IMG/VR virus record: IMGVR_UViG_3300033064_000476
Span: 1-30,784 of that record
DNA length: 30,784 nucleotides
Reading direction: 5' to 3' (one strand)
Source of the DNA: a virus
Shown here: in pieces, positions 4,118-29,537 of the stretch
Layout: each line of letters opens with the position of its first letter
How positions within the stretch are numbered: position 1 is the stretch's first letter
Notes under the pieces: generated by a model
Told to the model about the DNA's origin: nothing
The model's database searches: none
What the model saw: only the letters and a program-made list of their open reading frames with translations
Translations under genes and position numbers: made by a program

Positions 4118-5980
4118 TTAAACTATACCTAAAGTGCCTCCTAATCTTCTATTTCTGTCTAAACTATTAGCTAATACCCCAATTAAACTTTGACCGCTAA
4201 TTTCAAAGACTACATTACCGCCTCCCGAACCGCTAAAACTTGAACCGCCGCCAGAAGATCTAGGACTTTGGTAAGAGTTACCGCCTTGAGGTGTTGATCC
4301 GCCCCCGCTTAAACCTTGACTTGCTTTAGACCCTATTGCCCCGCCTATTGCTTTTAATGCAATTCCAACTCCAATTGCGGCAACTCCAGCTGCAATAGCT
4401 AAAGGCCCTCCAGTCGCAATAGCAATATCTAAATTACCTTTAACAACTGCTAATGTTCCGTATTTTATAAGTAGACCTCCCATTTCAGATAAGAAATTAC
4501 CTAAACCGGCTAATAAAGTATTTCCAATTGCATTTAAAACATTACCTCCTGTCGCCAAAGACTCTCCGATGACCGTTCCTAATCTTCCAAAAGTATCTGA
4601 TAAAGATCCTTGAATTAAAGCGTCGGCAGATTCATTTAAATTTATTAGAGCCGCTTCCATTTCTGTAATAACCTTTTCAGGTATCAAAGGTTTCAATGGG
4701 ATGTCTAATGGAATAGGAGTATTTTTAAAAGTATCTAATGCGCTGCCTAAAGACTCTTCTAATAATTTAACTACTTTTTTGCCTTCGTTTTTAATTTTTT
4801 CATTATCAATGATAGATGGTAAAGGTATGGCTATTAAAGTAGCTCTGGATGTTTCTGCACTACTACCTGAAGATTTTGTTTCCAAAGAAATTGACGCCTT
4901 TACATCTTTGTCCGCTAATTTTTGTAAGTTAGCTAATTCTGTATTTACCGCAATTAACTCGCCTCGTAAATCTGTAAATTCTCTATTTAATGAACCAAAC
5001 TTAAAAAAGTCTAAAGCACCTAAAGCCTTAACTTGTGCATTTGTTAATTCTAAATTCCCCTTGTTTAAATCTTGTACTAATTTTAATTGTTTTCCTGGAG
5101 GCGTATTTGTTAGTTTTATTATTTCTAAAGCAGTTGCCTTTAATTTTTCCTGAATGTCTAATTCTTTAGAAGCAGCTTCTCCGGCCTTTGCACTTAAAGC
5201 GGATGCCCTTGCTCTTGACCTTAAAGCTATAGACAACTGATTTATTATACCTGTTAAATCACCGTTTAATATTTTTTCGTCGCTTAGGTTTTTAAAATAT
5301 GCCGGATATTCACTTTTTAATTTTTGTAACGCAATTAATCTATTTTTGTCTGAAACGCTTTTATCTTGCGCGGTTGCTACTAATGACTTTAAAGAAGATA
5401 TTTGCTCTCCAGCACTTTTAGCCGCTTCAATTCCCAATTCCTGTAGAGCTTGTTTTGATTCATTGAAGTTTCCTGTAAGTTTGTCGTAAACATCCCCAAC
5501 GCTTAAACCTGATTGAGCCATAAAAGTTAAGCCAGTGGTAACTAATGAAACAGCAAGCAAAATCCCACCTGTGCCCATTAAAGAACTAGCTAAAGCCTTT
5601 AACGCTCCCCCCGTGCTACCTGTTTGATTTCGTAGATAAGAAAATGACTCCGCAGTAGCGGTTAGGTTGTTTTGTATTCCAACCATGCCGTAAGGTGCAT
5701 CTTGAGCAATACGGCTAAATTGAATTAAAGCATTGCTTCCGTTTGCCACTTTTGGCGCCATACCTGTAAAAGAAGATCCGGCACTATTAACAGACTTTTT
5801 TAATCCGTTTAATTGTGTTTGTGCTTTATCAATTTGCATTTTCAACGGCACCGCATCAAGTCCTAACTTAACTTGTATAGCTTTCTCTTTTCTTAGCCTT
5901 GCTATTTTATATTCTGCTGCTGCAATTTCTGCTTTTAATTCTGAACTGTCAGCACCTATGGTAACCTCTAATTTAGCCAT
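4118..5980 (-). CDS. Tail tape measure protein
   Basis: 620 aa and the longest tail gene after the tip protein. The N-terminal 80 residues are charged and probably helical/coiled coil (ELKAEIAAAEYKIARLRKEK). They are followed by SNALIQFSRIAQDAPYG and a segment with NNLTATAESFSYL, a stretch typical of Bacteroidota tape measures. Hydrophobic segments lie near residues 140-160 and 510-555, and the C-terminal part is Gly/Ser-rich (SGGGSSFSGSGGGN). The product sets tail length and is ejected with DNA; using the usual ~1.5 angstrom per residue, a tail of about 90 nm is expected (inference). It follows the tail assembly chaperone pair directly, with stop and start separated by one base (TAAaATG). 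Confidence 0.92.
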   Translation of the reverse strand: MAKLEVTIGADSSELKAEIAAAEYKIARLRKEKAIQVKLGLDAVPLKMQIDKAQTQLNGLKKSVNSAGSSFTGMAPKVANGSNALIQFSRIAQDAPYGMVGIQNNLTATAESFSYLRNQTGSTGGALKALASSLMGTGGILLAVSLVTTGLTFMAQSGLSVGDVYDKLTGNFNESKQALQELGIEAAKSAGEQISSLKSLVATAQDKSVSDKNRLIALQKLKSEYPAYFKNLSDEKILNGDLTGIINQLSIALRSRARASALSAKAGEAASKELDIQEKLKATALEIIKLTNTPPGKQLKLVQDLNKGNLELTNAQVKALGALDFFKFGSLNREFTDLRGELIAVNTELANLQKLADKDVKASISLETKSSGSSAETSRATLIAIPLPSIIDNEKIKNEGKKVVKLLEESLGSALDTFKNTPIPLDIPLKPLIPEKVITEMEAALINLNESADALIQGSLSDTFGRLGTVIGESLATGGNVLNAIGNTLLAGLGNFLSEMGGLLIKYGTLAVVKGNLDIAIATGGPLAIAAGVAAIGVGIALKAIGGAIGSKASQGLSGGGSTPQGGNSYQSPRSSGGGSSFSGSGGGNVVFEISGQSLIGVLANSLDRNRRLGGTLGIV

Positions 5981-17402: not shown

Positions 17403-17477
17403 TTAATACCTAAACCCTGTTTTTCCACCAAATATAAAAAATGAAATTTTGTCGTAAATTCTTTCTAATGTTTTCAT
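17403..17477 (-). CDS. Possible micro-protein, 24 aa
   Basis: A very short frame from ATG 17477 to TAA 17403: it begins MKTLERIYDKISFFIF and ends in GFRY. It overlaps the VRR-NUC stop as ATGA, the same coupling used by real genes here, and TATATTTG lies 16 nt upstream. Amphipathic with a short hydrophobic centre. It could be real or chance; no homology is recognised. Confidence 0.35.
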   Translation of the reverse strand: MKTLERIYDKISFFIFGGKTGFRY

Positions 17478-17812
17478 AGTTTGTAATTTTTATCAAATAT
17501 ACATATTATTTTTCTAAAATCCTCTAAACTTCTAACTAAATAATAATTAAATCCCAATAATTCTACTTTGGATTGAAATTCAATCTGAGCGTCTGATTGT
17601 TTGCCTTTTTCTGTTTTAACTTCAAAGAAATAAGTTATCCCATTTGGCATCAATACTATCAAGTCGGCAACTCCTGCCATTTGACCTGTTTCCTTTAGCT
17701 TTTTAGCCTCCAAAATGTGTCTTGACCCTCCATTAGGCACGGAGAAAATTAAGCCCTTAAATTGGTTTTTATACCAGATCACGATTTGCTGTTGTATTTG
17801 ATCTTCTGTCAT
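17474..17812 (-). CDS. VRR-NUC domain nuclease
   Basis: 112 aa, the length of a stand-alone phage VRR-NUC protein (PF08774). The PD-(D/E)xK core is visible: GQMAGVADLIVL gives D50, YFFEVKTEKGKQS gives E64 and K66, and Q76 follows in QIEFQ; the N-terminal EDQIQQQIVIWYK helix carries the leading Glu/Gln. The family resolves or nicks branched DNA. Its location next to the candidate origin and downstream of the primase-helicase suggests a role in replication or recombination intermediates. Start ATG at 17812 is 19 nt from the nearest GGTNACC repeat. Confidence 0.88.
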   Translation of the reverse strand: MTEDQIQQQIVIWYKNQFKGLIFSVPNGGSRHILEAKKLKETGQMAGVADLIVLMPNGITYFFEVKTEKGKQSDAQIEFQSKVELLGFNYYLVRSLEDFRKIICIFDKNYKL

Positions 17813-17830
17813 TTTTTATAAATTTTTTGC

Positions 17831-18047
17831 GGTTACCTTTTTTAGGTTACCTTTTTTATTTTAAAACTATTTGAGATGTAAATAAATAATTATACCTATA
17901 AAAAAATATTAATACTCCCATACTCTTATGATAATATATAATATTTAGGTAACTTTATATAAATACTTTTTTAAGTCCTATTGTCATTGATTTTTTTAGG
18001 TTACCTTTTTTCTGTAAAAAAAGGTAACCTTTGCTAAAAAGGTAACC
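17831..18047 (-). repeat. GGTNACC repeat block with AT-rich core; candidate replication origin
   Basis: This 249-nt gene-free gap (17813-18061) holds five exact GGTNACC repeats starting at 17831, 17845, 17999, 18023 and 18041, plus a degenerate GGTAACT at 17948. All carry flanking T or A runs (AGGTTACCTTTTTT). Copies at 17998-18011 and 18017-18030 form a 14-bp perfect inverted repeat with a five-base loop. Between the two repeat groups lie about 145 nt of almost pure A/T. Orientation of the left group is opposite to the 18023/18041 copies. Iterons around an AT-rich unwinding region beside the primase-helicase gene fit an origin; this is inference. Confidence 0.55.
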
Positions 18048-18061
18048 TTTTTTGTTATAAA

Positions 18062-20233
18062 TCAAATAAAATGTTGGTTTTCTGTGTCAATTGTTATAAT
18101 TTTTTCAAATAAAACAAATCCTTTTTTTAATTCTCCATATATTTTTACTGGTTTATACTCCATTTTATTTCTAATATAAATCTTTCTTAAATCAAATTTG
18201 GTAAACTTTACGTTTGTATTTGAGAATATATTAAGTAATTCTCCCTTATTTAAAACTACTTTTTGATTAAAATAAGCGTCTTCTTTAAGAGAGTATCGAT
18301 TGAAAAATATGTCTTCAATCTCATCATTTTCGTAAAATTCGTCGTTTTCTGACTTCATTAATTCCAAGTCCTCTTCTTTACGAATTACCCACTCAAAACC
18401 ATCTAAAAACATTCTATACGCTTCGGCTAACATCGCATTTGAGTCAAAATTAATGCACGCATCGTAATCAATTGATTCTACTTTTATAGGTAGTAATCTT
18501 CTATTGCCTGTGGGATCTTTCAATATATCCAATTCGTTTGTACTACCTAAAAGAGATACTTTTCGCATTTCGCGACTATCATTAATGCCGTATGATTTTC
18601 TATCTACTGCTATTGACATATCGGAAACCGCTTTAAAATTCTTAACATCTTTGGCGCCAACTCCTCCGAATTCGTCATCATACATTATAATATTACGACA
18701 CATTCTAAATTTAAAATCCCGTGTTTCTTCTATTTTGCCTTCAACAAAATAATCCTGGAACTCTTTAGGTAAAATATGACGGCACCATGTTGTTTTTCCT
18801 ATTCCGTGCCTACCTCCGGCCAAAACTATTGTCAAAGGACTAACTTTGTCATTTACTTTTTTTCTATGAATGTTATTCATTAAACCAACTATCCAAGACG
18901 TAAAATAAGCAGCGTTAATATCTTTTTTAGGTTCAATTAAATCAATGTATGCCTTAATATATCCATCTCCTTTATACTCTAAATTTTCCAGATAATTGGT
19001 AACTTTGTTTTCGCTTTTTGTAACATAGCTATTTAGGCACTTCATTACTCTTTGGGGAGTTACATCTTGCTCGCAATATGCGCTGGCTTGTATTGATATT
19101 GTATTTAATGTCCTGTCATCTATGACACTACCTAATACTTCAATCAGTCCGTTAAATTGGTTGTAAATAGGCTGCCATTCTTGACTAACAAAACTAATTA
19201 CTTTGCTGTCTAAGTCCTCGCCTTGATCTTGTTTAAGAATATCATTACCAATTTTTATGATTTGTATTTCTAAATCGGTTGGCTTTTCAATTGGCTTTTT
19301 TGTGGCCTTAGATATTCTAACGCGTTCTATTGCATCTTTTGTGCTTTTACTTACCACATCGACTCCCTCCTCTTTTGCGTAGTGGTATAAAGTTGCGATT
19401 GTAATACCATCATTAGCACCTTTGCAAAATCGATTGTAATCGCGCTCTATTCTTTTGTGGTCGTATTTATCTCCACCGGCACAAATAGCATCGTAGTATT
19501 GAAATCCAGCAGAACCAAACTTACTAGCAATTGAAAATCCAATATCTAAATAACGCTTATAATCGCCTTGACATATATCTTTGCCTTTTAATTCATTTAT
19601 AATGCGACCAAAATCGTCCTCAGCAAATAAATAATCCTTTTTAGGTTTTTCTTTTGGTTTTTTGTAAGTACTAATAAACTTTTGACTACTTGGATTTTCG
19701 TAAATGTATGGATCATAAGATACAAACCTTGCGCGTGCTTCATCTTTACACGCCTGATCAATAGAAATATTGTAATTATCCAAATAGTACTGAGCCAAAT
19801 CGTAAAACGATTCTAAGAACTTTTTAGGATTAATTTTTACAAATATACAAACCCCTTTACCTCCAGCAGAACGATGAATAATACAAGTGTATTTATCTTG
19901 CTTTAATTCATTAAATAAATTTTCATCTACGTCGTCATCAATATCAGCCAAATAAAAACCGTTCATTTCAGCAATATTATTTTTTCCTCTTGTGTGTCCG
20001 GCTTTTATTGTGCAACATGCCGTAGCTAAAATTAAATTCCTTTTTGCGTCGCTGTATTCTTTGCCCTTTCCAAACTTTTGTAAAGCGTTTCTAACATCAA
20101 TAATTTCGTTTATGTACTTACCGGAACGAATATCGTTAACGTAATCCCTCAAGCTTATATCTGCTTCTAAAATGTGGCTTTTATTGCTAGAAATACTTGC
20201 AAATGTGCTTATTTTTATAGTGTTAAAGTCCAT
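18062..20233 (-). CDS. Primase-helicase: VirE_N, PriCT-like and VapE-like domains
   Basis: 723 aa. Residues 1-190 resemble the BT4734/VirE N-terminal domain, an AEP primase-polymerase relative: FYLADIDDD (D97, D99) and IIHRSAGGKGVCIFV (His120). Residues 225-290 resemble PriCT (YLDIGFSIASKFG, then DYNRFCKG and TIATLYHYA). Residues 440-640 are a VapE-type SF3/AAA helicase: Walker A GGRHGIGKTT (473-482), Walker B IIMYDDE (515-521), then GSTNELDILKDPTGNRRLLP. The protein should synthesise primers and unwind DNA at the phage origin, and the repeat block lies directly behind it. TAAATTTG, a -7 box match, ends 7 nt before the ATG. Confidence 0.88.
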   Translation of the reverse strand: MDFNTIKISTFASISSNKSHILEADISLRDYVNDIRSGKYINEIIDVRNALQKFGKGKEYSDAKRNLILATACCTIKAGHTRGKNNIAEMNGFYLADIDDDVDENLFNELKQDKYTCIIHRSAGGKGVCIFVKINPKKFLESFYDLAQYYLDNYNISIDQACKDEARARFVSYDPYIYENPSSQKFISTYKKPKEKPKKDYLFAEDDFGRIINELKGKDICQGDYKRYLDIGFSIASKFGSAGFQYYDAICAGGDKYDHKRIERDYNRFCKGANDGITIATLYHYAKEEGVDVVSKSTKDAIERVRISKATKKPIEKPTDLEIQIIKIGNDILKQDQGEDLDSKVISFVSQEWQPIYNQFNGLIEVLGSVIDDRTLNTISIQASAYCEQDVTPQRVMKCLNSYVTKSENKVTNYLENLEYKGDGYIKAYIDLIEPKKDINAAYFTSWIVGLMNNIHRKKVNDKVSPLTIVLAGGRHGIGKTTWCRHILPKEFQDYFVEGKIEETRDFKFRMCRNIIMYDDEFGGVGAKDVKNFKAVSDMSIAVDRKSYGINDSREMRKVSLLGSTNELDILKDPTGNRRLLPIKVESIDYDACINFDSNAMLAEAYRMFLDGFEWVIRKEEDLELMKSENDEFYENDEIEDIFFNRYSLKEDAYFNQKVVLNKGELLNIFSNTNVKFTKFDLRKIYIRNKMEYKPVKIYGELKKGFVLFEKIITIDTENQHFI

Positions 20234-20237
20234 AATT

Positions 20238-21593
20238 TTACAAATTTAATTTTTTAATTATTTCTACTAAGCAGCTTACTACAATTGAATTACCTGCCTG
20301 CCTATAAGCCTGAGAATCGCTGACATTCCACTTAAAATCCTCGTTAAAGTCCATCAAACGGAAACATTCTTTTGGGGTTAATCTTCTTATACGTTGTTTC
20401 GTTAATACAGCCTGATTGCAAGCCGTATCTAAAGTTTGGCTTACTCCTTTACCAACCCTTCCTCTACGAGTTTCTGAATTAGGGTTTGAGAAGTTTATAG
20501 AGTCGTTTTCTGTAGCTATATCGTAGCCCTTTGAGTTGTTGGCAGGAATCACAACTACATTGTCTTTCTGAACCGTAGTAAGTGCGTTTGAAGTTCCATT
20601 TTCGTTTATTTCAAGCATTTGTTCTGTTGGTAATCCTGATACTCTGCTTAATGGATTTTGTGGGTTACGACCTCTAATTGCTCCGATTTTAGTTTCTACA
20701 TACCCATTAGCGTAACCATGAGTTCCTGCACAAATATTAGGACTTGTTCCTTGTTCTGAGAAAACTTGACTTGCCTGTGTGTCTTGATTTATATAACCAA
20801 CTTTTATATAATTATCTGATTTACCAATTTTAGCTAATCTTGCCGTAAGAGTTGACGAAACTTCATCTTCTGTTTTAGGAATCATTGATTTCCAAATTCC
20901 ATTTCCTAAATCTTTATCGGTTGTTAATGATTTAATCATTTTATCACTCAAGAAATACTTTTCATCAACTTCACTTTCTAAAACGTCTTTCAATCTTTTT
21001 ACTAAATGGAAAGGTTTAGGAAAGCAAAAATTATTATCTACATCATCACGAATACCAATTATAAAAACTCTCTCTCTATTTTGGGGTACTCCGTAATGTT
21101 TAGCGTTCATAACCTGGTAATACACGTGATATTGAACGCTATTTTCGTGAGGGAATATTACGGGGTTTCCGTTAACGGTTCTACCTCCTAACATATCAAT
21201 CCAAGTTTTAAATGTTTTACCTCCGTTGTCAGAAAGTAAACCTTTTACATTTTCAAAAATGAAATATCTCGGATTGTTCTTCACAATAAATTCGTGAGAG
21301 TTGTAAAATAAAACTCCATTTGTAGAATCTTCTCCTTTACGTTTACCTGCTAAACTGAACGATTGACAGGGTGGCGAAGTCATAAATATATCTAATGATT
21401 CTTCGGGAATTTTACGATCATAAACATTCTCGGGATAGTAATCTGGATCTCCATAATTATACATATAAGTTTGCCTAGCGTATTTATCCATATCGCAAGC
21501 AAATTTCTTGTCTTGAGTAATTCCTAACCTTTTTAATGCTTGGTCAAACGCTCCAACACCGCTGAAATCTGAACCTGTTTTAATTTTTCTCAT
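20238..21593 (-). CDS. DNA (cytosine-5) methyltransferase
   Basis: 451 aa. Motif I DFSGVGAF (9-16), motif IV TSPPCQSFS (72-80) with catalytic Cys76, motif VI FIFENVKG (111-118), motif VIII QNRERVFIIG (171-180), motif IX RLTPKECFRLMDF and motif X RQAGNSIVV at the C-terminus. All catalytic motifs are present, so it should be active. The region of about residues 200-410 is the target recognition part and contains Asn/Gly-rich stretches. No cognate endonuclease is adjacent, so it is likely an orphan enzyme protecting phage DNA. The gene follows a small membrane protein by a 2-nt gap. Confidence 0.94.
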   Translation of the reverse strand: MRKIKTGSDFSGVGAFDQALKRLGITQDKKFACDMDKYARQTYMYNYGDPDYYPENVYDRKIPEESLDIFMTSPPCQSFSLAGKRKGEDSTNGVLFYNSHEFIVKNNPRYFIFENVKGLLSDNGGKTFKTWIDMLGGRTVNGNPVIFPHENSVQYHVYYQVMNAKHYGVPQNRERVFIIGIRDDVDNNFCFPKPFHLVKRLKDVLESEVDEKYFLSDKMIKSLTTDKDLGNGIWKSMIPKTEDEVSSTLTARLAKIGKSDNYIKVGYINQDTQASQVFSEQGTSPNICAGTHGYANGYVETKIGAIRGRNPQNPLSRVSGLPTEQMLEINENGTSNALTTVQKDNVVVIPANNSKGYDIATENDSINFSNPNSETRRGRVGKGVSQTLDTACNQAVLTKQRIRRLTPKECFRLMDFNEDFKWNVSDSQAYRQAGNSIVVSCLVEIIKKLNL

Positions 21594-21595
21594 AA

Positions 21596-21802
21596 TTAAT
21601 TCTTATTAAATAATCTTCTTACTAAATACCCTCTTATTATAGAAACGGCAAGAAATACAAAGGTTATTATTAAATTTTGCCCTATGCTTACAGTAATTTC
21701 AAGTAAGGGATATAAAATTACCTGTATTAAAATGGATGTACCAAGCCCTATAATAGTTTGGACAATGCTCTCAATAAATGATTTGTTTTTAGATTGTGTC
21801 AT
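21596..21802 (-). CDS. Small two-helix membrane protein (DUF7220-like)
   Basis: 68 aa. MTQSKNKSFIESIVQTIIGL followed by ILIQVILYPL and then GQNLIITFVFLAVSIIRGYL and RRLF: this matches a small protein found in many phages (S.iE...N...G...a...Q....P......s...n......FT..S..R.Y..RR.F). Two hydrophobic helices flank a short polar turn, with a basic C-terminus predicted inside. Function is not established. It overlaps the end of the DEAH helicase gene by 14 nt. Confidence 0.78.
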   Translation of the reverse strand: MTQSKNKSFIESIVQTIIGLGTSILIQVILYPLLEITVSIGQNLIITFVFLAVSIIRGYLVRRLFNKN

Positions 21803-23345
21803 ATTTAATTTTTTTATATTCTGTTATTATTTTACTGCAAAATGTATCATATCTTACTCTTTTACTATCGCTTAAATCTGAAAGTAATATTTTACGATAA
21901 TATGGAAATAGTAATTTTTTGAAGCGTAAATCTAAATTACCTTTTTCGACGTGGTAATTAAAGTCTTTTTCTGGGACTTCAAATTTACACAAAAAAGTAA
22001 CCCACTTTTGTTTTAATATCTTAAATGTTTCAAACTTTGTGTGTTCTTTGATTAGATGAAAATTAATGTCAATTGTCGGAGGTTCTAAATTTATTTTGCG
22101 CCCTTTTATAATAAATTCTTTTTGTTCCTTTTCCTCTTCCTCTTCAATCTCTTCTATTTCAATCTCATGACCGCAATTAAAACAAATTTTTTCTTTTTTT
22201 TCAAATGTAAATCCACAGCTATTGCACTCATGAGTATCGATTAAATAGCTTTTAATTTGCTTATCTAAAAATATTTTTTTCCAATCTCTCTCGTCTGAAA
22301 AATAACCGTGTGTATCATTGTTATTACCACCGTCGATTAATAAGAAATGCGGCTTTTCTACTTTTAAAGTATTACGAGCTCCGCGCCCTGCAATTTGAAT
22401 CCATAAAGATAATGACATTGTAGCGCGTGCCATTATTATAACCTCAACATCGCAAACATCAAAGCCTTTTGTAAAACAACCGGTGTTTATTAATACCGGA
22501 TCTCTTTCATTCCTAAACCATTCTACAATACCATCACGCTCTTTTGCGTCATTATTTACACTATCATAGGTTTTTACGTTTTGATCCATGAATAGCAAAT
22601 TGTAAATTGTATTTGTAGAAGTTGCGCTTGTAAAAATCATTGTTTTTTTACCCTCGCAAAGTTTGTCAAATGTTTTACGCAAAGCAGTTGTATAACTTTC
22701 GCTCTGGAATACTTCTTTAAGGCTGGCCGCTGTAAATTCGCCGCTTGCATCGGTTTTTAACGGCGTGCTATCAAATTCTATGTATTCATTTTTTTCCTTT
22801 GTTAAATAGCTGTTTTCCATTAGCCAGGATATAGGCTTACCGCAAACTATTGTATCATACCAGTCAGACATAGTTTCAACCGCGCTTGTAAATTCGTCTA
22901 TTTTGTATCTCTTTAATCTAACAGGAGTGGCTGTAAATCCAATTCTTTGGCAGTTTGGTAAAAACTCAAATAATTTATTGAACTCCCAAATATGGCATTC
23001 ATCAATTACGCAATAATCAAATAATGGTAATTTTTTGCGACGATTCCAAAGGCTCTTAACCATTGCTACAATTACTTTATTTTCTGGTATTACTTTGTTT
23101 CCAGCTAAAATACAACCTACGTCAATACCTTGCTTTTTAAACGTTTTAACGGTCTGATTTACCAAGTCTTCACTATCTACTAAAATAAGTGTTTTACTGT
23201 CTAAAATCGATACCAATTCTGTAAATACAACCGTTTTACCGCCTCCCGTACTTAGTTGAGCGCAAACACTATTGTTTGTTTTTAAAGCTGTCATAATTTC
23301 GTCTAAAAATTCCTTTTGATGTGGATATAAAGTTTTTTTGCTCAT
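21789..23345 (-). CDS. DEAH/DECH superfamily 2 helicase with zinc-binding C-terminal part
   Basis: 518 aa. Motif I STGGGKT (32-38), motif II DECH (115-118), motif III FTATP (137-141), motif V region FTKGFDV, motif VI QIAGRGAR (317-324). After the helicase core come CNSC..CFNC (C374, C377, C388, C391), a likely zinc ribbon, and an acidic run of Glu (about 394-411). The shape is that of phage-encoded RecG/SSL2-like helicases used in replication or recombination. Transcribed behind an unusual structured leader (23346-23445) with its own -7 box. Confidence 0.88.
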   Translation of the reverse strand: MSKKTLYPHQKEFLDEIMTALKTNNSVCAQLSTGGGKTVVFTELVSILDSKTLILVDSEDLVNQTVKTFKKQGIDVGCILAGNKVIPENKVIVAMVKSLWNRRKKLPLFDYCVIDECHIWEFNKLFEFLPNCQRIGFTATPVRLKRYKIDEFTSAVETMSDWYDTIVCGKPISWLMENSYLTKEKNEYIEFDSTPLKTDASGEFTAASLKEVFQSESYTTALRKTFDKLCEGKKTMIFTSATSTNTIYNLLFMDQNVKTYDSVNNDAKERDGIVEWFRNERDPVLINTGCFTKGFDVCDVEVIIMARATMSLSLWIQIAGRGARNTLKVEKPHFLLIDGGNNNDTHGYFSDERDWKKIFLDKQIKSYLIDTHECNSCGFTFEKKEKICFNCGHEIEIEEIEEEEEKEQKEFIIKGRKINLEPPTIDINFHLIKEHTKFETFKILKQKWVTFLCKFEVPEKDFNYHVEKGNLDLRFKKLLFPYYRKILLSDLSDSKRVRYDTFCSKIITEYKKIKYDTI

Positions 23346-23445
23346 AACTTTTATAAAATAAAAATGCCCATCATTTCAAGCGGGCAGGCTTTACTTTGAT
23401 GAGCTTCTTAAAATTTCTTATTTGTATCGAACCTGCCCGAACAAT
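23346..23445 (-). promoter_or_regulatory. Structured leader with competing stems before the helicase gene
   Basis: In the minus-strand RNA, CGGGCAGG (plus 23432-23439) is perfectly complementary to CCTGCCCG (23381-23388) across a 43-nt loop. The same CCTGCCCG segment can instead pair with TGGGCA (23365-23370), which is directly followed by TTTTTATTTT, a terminator-like tail. A third option nests AAGC/GCTT inside CATCA/TGATG with CTGCCC in the loop. Mutually exclusive pairings of this sort are typical of attenuators and riboswitches. No known family is recognised. Confidence 0.5.
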
Positions 23446-23451
23446 ACAAGA

Positions 23452-23459
23452 CAAATATA
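23452..23459 (-). promoter_or_regulatory. -7 box before the helicase leader
   Basis: The minus strand reads TATATTTG, exact to TAnnTTTG, in the gap right after the stop of the small HTH gene. No TTG is present at -33, so strength is uncertain. Confidence 0.4.
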
Positions 23460-23464
23460 GTAAA

Positions 23465-23626
23465 TTATATTCTTTCTAATTTAAATATCTCTAAAGATTT
23501 CCAATTGTGAATTTTTAATCTTAAATATAAAGTTGGCTTAGATATTCCAATTAATCTACAAACTTCGTCATCTGTATCGGTTAATCTCATCCTAGCTACT
23601 TTTGCAGTACATTCTAATTTAGTCAT
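23465..23626 (-). CDS. Small helix-turn-helix protein
   Basis: 53 aa from ATG 23626 (MTKLECTAKVARMRLTDTDD), chosen because the upstream ATG at 23653 overlaps the preceding gene. The DDEVCRLIGISKPTLYLRLK segment is a clear helix-turn-helix of the homeodomain-like/resolvase type (h..lA..lGis..TlY..l), followed by a HNWK tail. Probably a DNA-binding regulator of phage genes; the target is unknown. It lies just before the structured leader and the helicase gene. Confidence 0.7.
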   Translation of the reverse strand: MTKLECTAKVARMRLTDTDDEVCRLIGISKPTLYLRLKIHNWKSLEIFKLERI

Positions 23627-23631
23627 AAAAT

Positions 23632-23862
23632 TTAATTTAATAATTCTAAACATTTTATATAAAATAGCTTTTTATTAGCCAATGCACTTTTATTCATTGA
23701 TAAAATAAGCTCTTCTAAAACTACTTTCATCATTTCATTTGTAAAAACATCATGTCCGGTAAATCCGCCAATTCTATTTTTTAGATCGTTATTGTAATTT
23801 AAAGCATTGACGATAGATATATCTTCAATGCTTTTTTGTTTTTTTCTGTAATTACATTCCAT
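23632..23862 (-). CDS. Small hypothetical protein, 76 aa
   Basis: The sequence begins MECNYRKKQKSIEDISIVNA and ends KKLFYIKCLELLN. It is mostly helical and contains GGFTGHDVFTNEMM. Unrecognised. It starts two nucleotides after the fusion helicase-methyltransferase gene and precedes the HTH gene by 5 nt, so it belongs to the same operon. Confidence 0.65.
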   Translation of the reverse strand: MECNYRKKQKSIEDISIVNALNYNNDLKNRIGGFTGHDVFTNEMMKVVLEELILSMNKSALANKKLFYIKCLELLN

Positions 23863-23864
23863 AA

Positions 23865-26054
23865 TTAAAAGAGTGTTAATGTTGAATTTTTTTCATTTAC
23901 AAATGCTTTATGGTTATTTTCATTTATTTTAAAATAGCTTTCTTTTAATTCAATTGATATTGATTTTCTATTCATTTTTATTGCAGTACATCCTTCAGAT
24001 CCGATTCCTCCAAATGGACTTAATACAGTATCTCCCTCGTTAGAATACAAATGCAATATTCTTTCAATTGTATCTAATTGCAAAGGACAAATATGTTTTT
24101 CATCATTCCCGTCACGTCCTGATCTATATTGCAGTGTTCTTGAATAATCAATATCCATCCAAACAGGACTAGCGTATTTTTGCCATAAATCAACGGGCAA
24201 ATAATCAGGTTTAGAACTATCCTTGTCTTGATGCGTTATTGGAAATTCATTATTACCTTCATTTCTAAAAAACAAAACATAATCAGGTATTCCAACTCTT
24301 GACATTATGCTATCTTTTTTTATTGTTTTATGAAGCAATCCCAATGCTTTTGTACGCTGCATTTCTGTTACTGGATTTTTCCACAAAGTTACTTTTGAAT
24401 GATAAATAAAACCCTCATTTTGAAACCAATCAATTAACATTCCTGAAAAATCACGTAATCCTATATATCCTTCTTTGCCCTTTTGTATAGGCAAGTCCAT
24501 ACAATGAATAGCACACATACGACCACTTTTGAGCGTTCTTTTTAATTCAGGAATAAGATATTTAAAATGTTGTTCAAATTGCTTATAATTAGATACATTC
24601 CCCATATCCTCTTCTTTATCTGAGTAAACATACAGCTCAGCAAATGGAGGGCTAAATACAATCAAATCCGCGCAATTATCTTCTAGTTTTGCAGTTTCTT
24701 GAACGCAATCTCCATTTATTAAATGATATTGATCTGTTTTAACTTCTTTATTCATAATTTTTACTTTTGATTTTGCTTTTTTATAATTAGATTCTGCAGA
24801 ATATCTGCTCATTTCTTTTATTCTTTCAAAATGTTGTATTTCTTTTTTTAAAATTGTTTGCCTTACATTTATTTGACTTTCTGGTATTAAAATATGAACT
24901 GTTACTTTGTTTTTTTGCCCAAACCTATAACATCTTCTTACCGCTTGATAAAAAGCCTCAAACTTAAAATCATAAGACATAAATATCATTTGATTGCATT
25001 GTTGGTAATTCATACCAAATGACGCTATACTTGTTTTGGTGATTAAGGTTTTAAATTCATCATTTGCAAATCCATTTAAATGTTTAGCTTTATATTCTGG
25101 TTTATCTGAGCCTTGAACATTTACTGAATTATCTATTAATTTTGATAAAGTATCTGTTTCTTGGTTTTTTAATCCCCAAACAATCCATTGTTTATCATTT
25201 GAATTAATCAATTCAATGGTCTTATTTACTCTGTCTTTAAAGCTTCTATTTAAATCTTTGTGTAATTCAGTAGCAGAAACCGCAACATCAGAAAATAAAG
25301 AATCGCTTAAATTCTCAACTTTTATACTATGCTCAACGTATTCTATTTCAGGTAAATTATATCCTTCACTATTAAATCCTAAACTTGAAGGATTATCAAT
25401 TGCCATTGACCATCCAGATACATATTTCCAAAAGTTATCTTGAGCGTGTTTTCTTAACCTCCATTTTGAAGTTTCACCACCATCATGCACAAAAAACATT
25501 GCTAACATTTCTAAATAAGTCATTCCTCCTAAAAATTCAGAATGCTGACCTAATTCCATGTGATCGTTTGGACTTGGCGTAGCGGTGCAGCACAATTTAT
25601 AAGGAGTGTTTTTAAAAGTTTCAATTATTAACGATGATAATTTACCATCTCTACCTTTTAAAATACTAGATTCATCTAATACAATACCTGAATAAATAGA
25701 AGTATCTGTATTTTTTAATTGATCGTAATTTGTAATGTCAAATACATCTAATTCAATGCCAAACTTAACAGCTTCGTTTTTTGTTTGTTCTACTATTGCA
25801 AGTGGAGCCAAAATAAGAACTTTCTTTTTTGTGTAAATTGAAACTTGATTAGCCCATTCTAATTGGCAAAATGTTTTTCCTAATCCGCAATCAAAGAAAA
25901 ATGCAAATTTACCTTTAAACAATGCTGTTTTAACTCCATATTTTTGAAAATCTTTCAATAAGGGATTTAACTTTTGTTCTTTAATTATAAATCCACTCTC
26001 GATAAATGTTTTTCTTTTTGTTTCTAAAAATTCTTGATAATCTGTCATAGTCAT
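23865..26054 (-). CDS. Helicase-DNA methyltransferase fusion
   Basis: 729 aa. Residues 1-420 are an SNF2/SF2 helicase: motif I CGLGKT (56-61), DESS box (127-130), CTATPSPND (156-164), motif VI QAVRRCYRFGQ (370-380). Residues 440-729 are a beta-class amino-methyltransferase: motif IV SPPF (468-471) first, then LQLDTIERILHLYSNEGD and motif I LSPFGGIGSEG (678-688) near the C-terminus. SPPF fits N4-cytosine or N6-adenine methylation. Translocase and methylase in one chain recalls Type I/III and ISP restriction architecture, but no nuclease motif is visible. A self-contained modification or anti-restriction role is plausible. It has its own promoter at 26081-26110. Confidence 0.9.
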   Translation of the reverse strand: MTMTDYQEFLETKRKTFIESGFIIKEQKLNPLLKDFQKYGVKTALFKGKFAFFFDCGLGKTFCQLEWANQVSIYTKKKVLILAPLAIVEQTKNEAVKFGIELDVFDITNYDQLKNTDTSIYSGIVLDESSILKGRDGKLSSLIIETFKNTPYKLCCTATPSPNDHMELGQHSEFLGGMTYLEMLAMFFVHDGGETSKWRLRKHAQDNFWKYVSGWSMAIDNPSSLGFNSEGYNLPEIEYVEHSIKVENLSDSLFSDVAVSATELHKDLNRSFKDRVNKTIELINSNDKQWIVWGLKNQETDTLSKLIDNSVNVQGSDKPEYKAKHLNGFANDEFKTLITKTSIASFGMNYQQCNQMIFMSYDFKFEAFYQAVRRCYRFGQKNKVTVHILIPESQINVRQTILKKEIQHFERIKEMSRYSAESNYKKAKSKVKIMNKEVKTDQYHLINGDCVQETAKLEDNCADLIVFSPPFAELYVYSDKEEDMGNVSNYKQFEQHFKYLIPELKRTLKSGRMCAIHCMDLPIQKGKEGYIGLRDFSGMLIDWFQNEGFIYHSKVTLWKNPVTEMQRTKALGLLHKTIKKDSIMSRVGIPDYVLFFRNEGNNEFPITHQDKDSSKPDYLPVDLWQKYASPVWMDIDYSRTLQYRSGRDGNDEKHICPLQLDTIERILHLYSNEGDTVLSPFGGIGSEGCTAIKMNRKSISIELKESYFKINENNHKAFVNEKNSTLTLF

Positions 26055-29199: not shown

Positions 29200-29537
29200 A
29201 ATCCGTAAATTTGTTCAAATGTTAAATTGTATTTAATAAAAAATGCAGCAGAATTAATTAAAATATTTGGCCGCTTTTTATTCCACGCATAAGCAGTAAG
29301 AGGGTTCATTTTAAGCAGTTTAATTAATTGCTTATTTGGCATTTCTAAGGATCTTAAATAATTGCTTTCTAGTTTTGCAATTTTATCAAATACAGCCGGA
29401 CTTTTGATTTTCCAACGTGCAATAGTATCAACTTTTACATTAAACATTTTAGCTAATTGTTTATCTGTCACACGTCCATGACCTTCATACTCTAAAAGTA
29501 ATTTTATCCTATTAGGATTGAATTTTGATTTTTCCAT
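29196..29537 (-). CDS. Repressor-like protein with two HTH segments
   Basis: 113 aa from ATG 29537. A TTG at 29555 extends the frame but lies inside the -7 box, so it is rejected. Two HTH-like stretches are visible: VTDKQLAKMFNVKVDTIARW and MPNKQLIKLLKMNPLTAYAW, each followed by a basic K(S/R)P-type turn, so the protein looks like an internal duplication. Likely a DNA-binding regulator of early phage genes; whether it is a repressor is inference. It begins the operon that follows the lysis terminator. Confidence 0.7.
   Translation of the reverse strand: MEKSKFNPNRIKLLLEYEGHGRVTDKQLAKMFNVKVDTIARWKIKSPAVFDKIAKLESNYLRSLEMPNKQLIKLLKMNPLTAYAWNKKRPNILINSAAFFIKYNLTFEQIYGL

Follow-up and report, generated by a model that had tools for sequence, protein, structure and literature searches.

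The 249-nt intergenic gap at 17813–18061 is very probably a phage replication origin, in which GGTNACC repeats would act as iterons and the neighbouring VapE protein would bind them through a predicted C-terminal wing (residues 695, 697, 702, and 704). The gap lies in a 30,784-base virus record of IMG/VR, analysed at full length and referred to here as the window. Opposed repeats flank AT-rich DNA, relatives keep the layout of the repeats under a changing word, the word covaries with the wing, and VapE is structurally similar to SaPI PriRep.

The gap and its repeats

The gap runs from the stop codon of a VapE-type primase-helicase gene (18062–20233, minus strand) to the start of a VRR-NUC nuclease gene (17474–17812, minus strand). 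A first-pass annotation put its length at about 250 nt. The repeats it described are all present: GGTNACC in five exact copies and one degenerate copy, and a perfect inverted repeat of 14 bp. Iterons GGTTACC are located at 17831–17837, 17845–17851, and 17999–18005, iterons GGTAACC at 18023–18029 and 18041–18047, and the degenerate iteron GGTAACT at 17948–17954. The inverted repeat (17998–18011/18017–18030, spanning 17998–18030) consists of two opposed iterons and their A/T tracts. The core separating the iteron groups (17852–17947) has 13.5% G+C, and 17852–17998 has 15.6%, compared with 31.5% for the window. The core is AT-rich as described, but "nearly pure A/T" overstates this a little, and the 145-nt stretch with the lowest G+C in the window is found elsewhere, at 29493.

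GGTNACC is concentrated in the gap, as had been predicted. Five exact copies are found there and one elsewhere in the window, at 5960; dinucleotide shuffles give an expectation of 1.84 copies in the whole 30.8 kb and ~0.015 in the gap. Repeat density in the gap is ~100-fold that found outside it; having chosen the word from the gap itself inflates this figure. No second iteron cluster was seen in the window. GC skew has the same sign on both sides of the gap, which says little because nearly all window genes are on the minus strand.

Between iterons, at 17950–18000 of the window and at the same place in relatives, other words recur (e.g., ATCAAT...TTAA and TAAACCC) and are perhaps host-factor sites. 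Upstream of the initiator gene, 20238–26054 includes a C5 methyltransferase (20238–21593) and a fused SNF2-type helicase/N4-N6 methyltransferase (23865–26054). The window shares distant DNA-level kinship with Flavobacterium phage 11b.

Arrays and their layout in relatives

VapE relatives were drawn from viral contigs, genome contigs, and phage records, giving 91 distinct loci, some of which are near neighbours of each other. The genome-contig scan yielded one near relative, in a Flavobacterium MAG, and two contigs matched a DNA pattern built on the tandem spacing of the window. A word model was fitted separately to each of the short gaps. Repeat arrays above threshold were found in 81 of 86 gaps (window and relatives), compared with 3 of 86 shuffled gaps and 4 of 172 equal-length flank windows. 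Relatives had been expected to share the repeats; the place is shared but the word is changed. In the closest relatives (75–83% identity), the same gap contains repeats of GGGGGAA (L004 and L005), GGTTACA (L006), or GGTAACA (L007 and L008). Array words are GGTNACC, GGTAACA, GGTTACA, GGTAATA, GGTAAGA, GGGAACA, GGTAGTG, TGTAATAT, GGGGGAA, GTAAACA, and GGTAAAA. Copies within one phage are mostly of one word, with mixtures in a few gaps (L003, L022, L118, and L140). Three loci (L034, L038, and L041) encode a VapE-like protein with an unrelated C-terminus and have no such array. A second type of VapE C-terminus (L035, L036, L048, and L173) accompanies arrays of CTGTAAA, CTGTAAC, or CCTGTAA. L006 and L008 have an inverted iteron pair inside the last VapE codons, translated KVTLPF.

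The commonest layout begins ~3 nt past the VapE stop with three head-to-tail copies 8–11 bp apart, followed by one opposite-sense copy near 45 and two copies near 88 and 97. An AT-rich stretch of about 100 bp separates these from two opposite-sense copies near 200 and 207. Gaps were compared to this eight-position template with global shift, sign choice, and mirror image allowed, and the orientation of near-palindromic words was set by layout. At least six of eight positions were matched by 26 of 54 gaps and fewer than six by the other 28; random placements with equal freedom reached six in 0.17% of cases. The layout is common to clades with different words. The window array is among the sparser ones, with within-group spacing of 14–24 bp versus 8–11 bp in the commonest layout, and its gap matches five of eight positions, a score reached by 0 of 100 random placements.

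The array of the close relative L007 is inverted relative to the genes. It matches seven of eight template positions, as a mirror image only, and aligns to the window gap with a score of 101 as reverse complement and 60.5 in the forward direction (best of 500 shuffles, 84); when iterons were masked with N, N pairs inflated the shuffle scores. The array is therefore a module that occurs in both orientations. Such behaviour fits an origin better than a terminator or a leader, and inversion is what an orientation-independent site may show. The density of the word in the gap and the arrays of relatives support the initial proposal of an iteron origin beside an AT-rich region, and from sequence they argue strongly that the gap is an origin.

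The VapE C-terminal domain and nucleases that carry it

The proposed initiator is a 723-residue protein with Pfam domains BT4734-like_N, PriCT_2, and VapE-like. Its C-terminal domain (residues 655–712; 18098–18271, minus strand) is a predicted winged helix. The AlphaFold model has two helices followed by a beta hairpin (strands 693–698 and 701–710), and the winged helix reappears when the domain is modelled by itself. The wing hairpin (residues 693–710; 18104–18157, minus strand) turns at 699–700, which places residues 697 and 702 opposite each other, and likewise 695 and 704; judged from the strand limits, the four residues would form one patch on one wing face. Foldseek matched the whole protein most closely to SaPI PriRep1 with dsDNA (7pds, E 8e-16), followed by viral and plasmid primase-helicases, and a profile search of PDB sequences with VapE returned 7pds only. 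No Pfam family was found for the reading domain, and Foldseek gave no significant match to the isolated wing domain. The best match in a second look was the RFX1 DNA-binding domain (1dp7, Z 5.1; next 4.4). The RFX1 half-site is GTTACC/GGTAAC, the same hexamer as the iteron core of the window, which is a lead only. With Z too low for kinship and no sequence kinship shown between the two domains, RFX1, which reads DNA mainly through strands and wing (PMC8998557), is at most a parallel.

Covariation was measured as word-model distance against local VapE distance, with the distance across the remainder of VapE controlled for, among 60 proteins <97% identical. It peaks at VapE residues 681–705 (partial r 0.28; family-wise p over all windows 0.003 by free permutation and 0.001 within clades). 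Before residue 660, r is ≤0.12 everywhere, and residues 640–674 and the second helix (679–688) do not covary with the word. By residue, the signal is highest at 697 (z 6.2), 704 (3.8), 702 (2.9), and 695 (2.3) and is lower between them. Mutual information also ranks 704, 697, and 702 high, although by that measure a few columns elsewhere exceed z 4 as well. With words ordered by array layout, C at word position 7 accompanies K or R at residue 704 in 15 of 21 cases and other residues in 0 of 14 (Fisher p 2e-5, uncorrected for kinship). When words were instead aligned on their resemblance to GGTAAC, this rule had exceptions, several of which disappeared once words were ordered by layout.

The covariation is correlational and built on word models from short gaps, and kinship was controlled only through clade-restricted permutation and partial correlation. 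Because the array lies next to the 3′ end of the VapE gene, linkage could generate a signal of this kind. Linkage alone is disfavoured, since VRR-NUC, the control gene that borders the array on its far side, does not covary with the word (r −0.01). VRR-NUC was rejected as reader on the same ground. The result points to the VapE C-terminus, rather than VRR-NUC, as the candidate iteron reader and agrees with the earlier suggestion that the primase-helicase recognises GGTNACC.

Several relatives have a gene of ~190 codons within the array, annotated as a nuclease in the mumin phages. Such genes are found in or beside the array 3′ of VapE in L103/L174 (mumin), L135, L147, L150, L157, L166, L179, and L192. 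The N-terminus of the nuclease matches T5orf172/MUG113, and we take it to belong to the GIY-YIG superfamily. When a profile of the VapE reading domain was run against 1,685 ORFs of the collected loci, only VapE pieces and these nucleases matched (nucleases, E 2e-14 to 8e-5). The related nucleases examined directly 3′ of VapE in viral contigs carry the reading domain or a trace of it; most others in viral contigs have a different C-terminus, ending in what by eye resembles a helix-turn-helix. In L200 and L206, VapE has another type of C-terminus, the nuclease of the same phage has that type as well, and the nuclease domain finds its own VapE as best match of 101. The own VapE ranks first in these two loci only (second in L191, third in L190), so a nuclease domain matches the VapE of its class but not always that of its own phage. 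The origins of mumin and snusmum (L114) are near identical on either side of the insertion, and in snusmum the same site is empty, without a nuclease.

These matches support the VapE C-terminal domain as a portable iteron reader, and a nuclease in the array suggests possible origin-directed homing or interference. We propose tentatively, with a little less than even confidence, that words turn over by a wing rule under a fixed layout and that parasitic GIY-YIG-type nucleases acquired the reading domain for homing into competitors' origins or for cutting them. The parasitic reading is based on the conserved nuclease N-terminus joined to a C-terminus that resembles the class-matched VapE reading domain, and on the mumin nuclease inside the array versus the empty snusmum site.

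Alternative roles and known replicons

In the preferred reading, we infer that VapE would bind the iterons with its C-terminal winged-helix domain, one wing face (695, 697, 702, and 704) reading the bases that differ among phages. With helicase rings loaded by the opposed iteron sets on its two sides, the AT-rich core would melt and the N-terminal primase part of VapE would begin synthesis, starting replication. The repeats could instead be operators for transcriptional control by VapE or by a small regulator, with replication starting elsewhere. Initiator-bound repeats often double as autoregulatory sites, and VapE binding for regulation would give identical covariation. However, the array follows the 3′ end of the VapE gene and is not at its promoter, and promoter-like sites in the region are only as numerous as by chance. 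The conserved opposed layout around an AT-rich core and the occurrence of inverted arrays also make a purely regulatory role very unlikely.

Still less probable is that the repeats are targets of another phage protein, such as VRR-NUC, a DNA methyltransferase, or a recombinase, for cleavage, modification, or recombination. VRR-NUC adjoins the array, the C5 methyltransferase is encoded upstream of VapE, and GGTNACC, being palindromic, resembles a type II site. Against this, VRR-NUC lacks covariation with the word, and a methyltransferase target was rejected because words of relatives, including GGTAATA and GGGGGAA, are non-palindromic. We give least credence to a functional element that is a pRN1-like stem-loop or an inverted repeat ending transcripts. 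The minus strand of the gap does fold better than shuffles (z −5.7), which is accounted for by iterons opposed to each other, and pRN1 has a stem-loop at the corresponding place (PMC4234260). In the arrays, though, word, spacing, and strand are conserved, copies are mostly tandem without a stem, and the word covaries with the wing. A pure terminator role had been called unlikely from the outset and was rejected here, as no terminator-like site was found in the region. A known RNA element was also rejected, with no Rfam family found for the gap.

The origin reading has close precedents. The C-terminal domain of SaPI Rep helicases recognises an iteron origin directly downstream of its own gene, as does that of the SCCmec helicase Cch2 (PMC7581432), and opposed SaPI repeats are believed to act as loading sites for two hexamers in head-to-head arrangement (PMC9894130). 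As in SaPI Rep/PriRep (SaPIbov1, SaPI1, and SaPI5) and Cch2, the initiator proposed here is a helicase or primase-helicase, its closest solved structure is SaPI PriRep1, and several short iterons lie directly 3′ of its gene. The VapE counterpart of the SaPI Rep reading domain is, from sequence, a candidate only. Unlike the SaPI satellites, the window system belongs to Flavobacterium-type tailed phages, VRR-NUC is the next gene, many different words occupy a fixed layout, and the reading domain has no Pfam family. P4 alpha, which acts with ori1/crr, is likewise a primase-helicase with a winged-helix domain that binds origin repeats, as cited in PMC4234260. Its primase is TOPRIM-type, unlike that of VapE. 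P4 has a second cis site, crr, and no second cluster was seen in the window. ORF904 of pRN1 also combines a primase-polymerase, an SF3 helicase, and a C-terminal winged helix, and in this replicon too the cis element comes immediately after the 3′ end of the gene (PMC4234260), but the pRN1 origin is a stem-loop without iterons.

The gap thus has, in its sequence, the anatomy of a SaPI/P4-type replicon: a helicase fused with a primase, a cis site directly downstream of the initiator gene in the window and in relatives, and opposed sets of short iterons with an AT-rich region. A conserved long stem-loop without iterons, as in pRN1, is not what the 81 of 86 gaps with iteron arrays contain. The gap is best read as a SaPI/P4-like origin whose iterons would be read by the C-terminal wing of the initiator. 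None of the papers searched joins virulence-associated protein E, primase, iterons, and phage, and the main text of the mumin phage paper mentions neither an origin of replication, iterons, nor VapE.

If correct, this reading would give a large group of Flavobacterium-type tailed phages a defined origin and initiator. It would also provide >50 natural initiator-origin pairs with different words in one layout, a resource on joint specificity change. Because the word shifts in step with a small, putatively DNA-reading surface of VapE, the rule by which initiator reads origin is directly testable, and the cultured phages mumin and snusmum (Flavobacterium LMO6/LMO9) are named test cases. Judging by the series, a few residues may suffice to predict replication compatibility groups. 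The nucleases, if they are as proposed, would represent a further means by which phages attack one another's origins.
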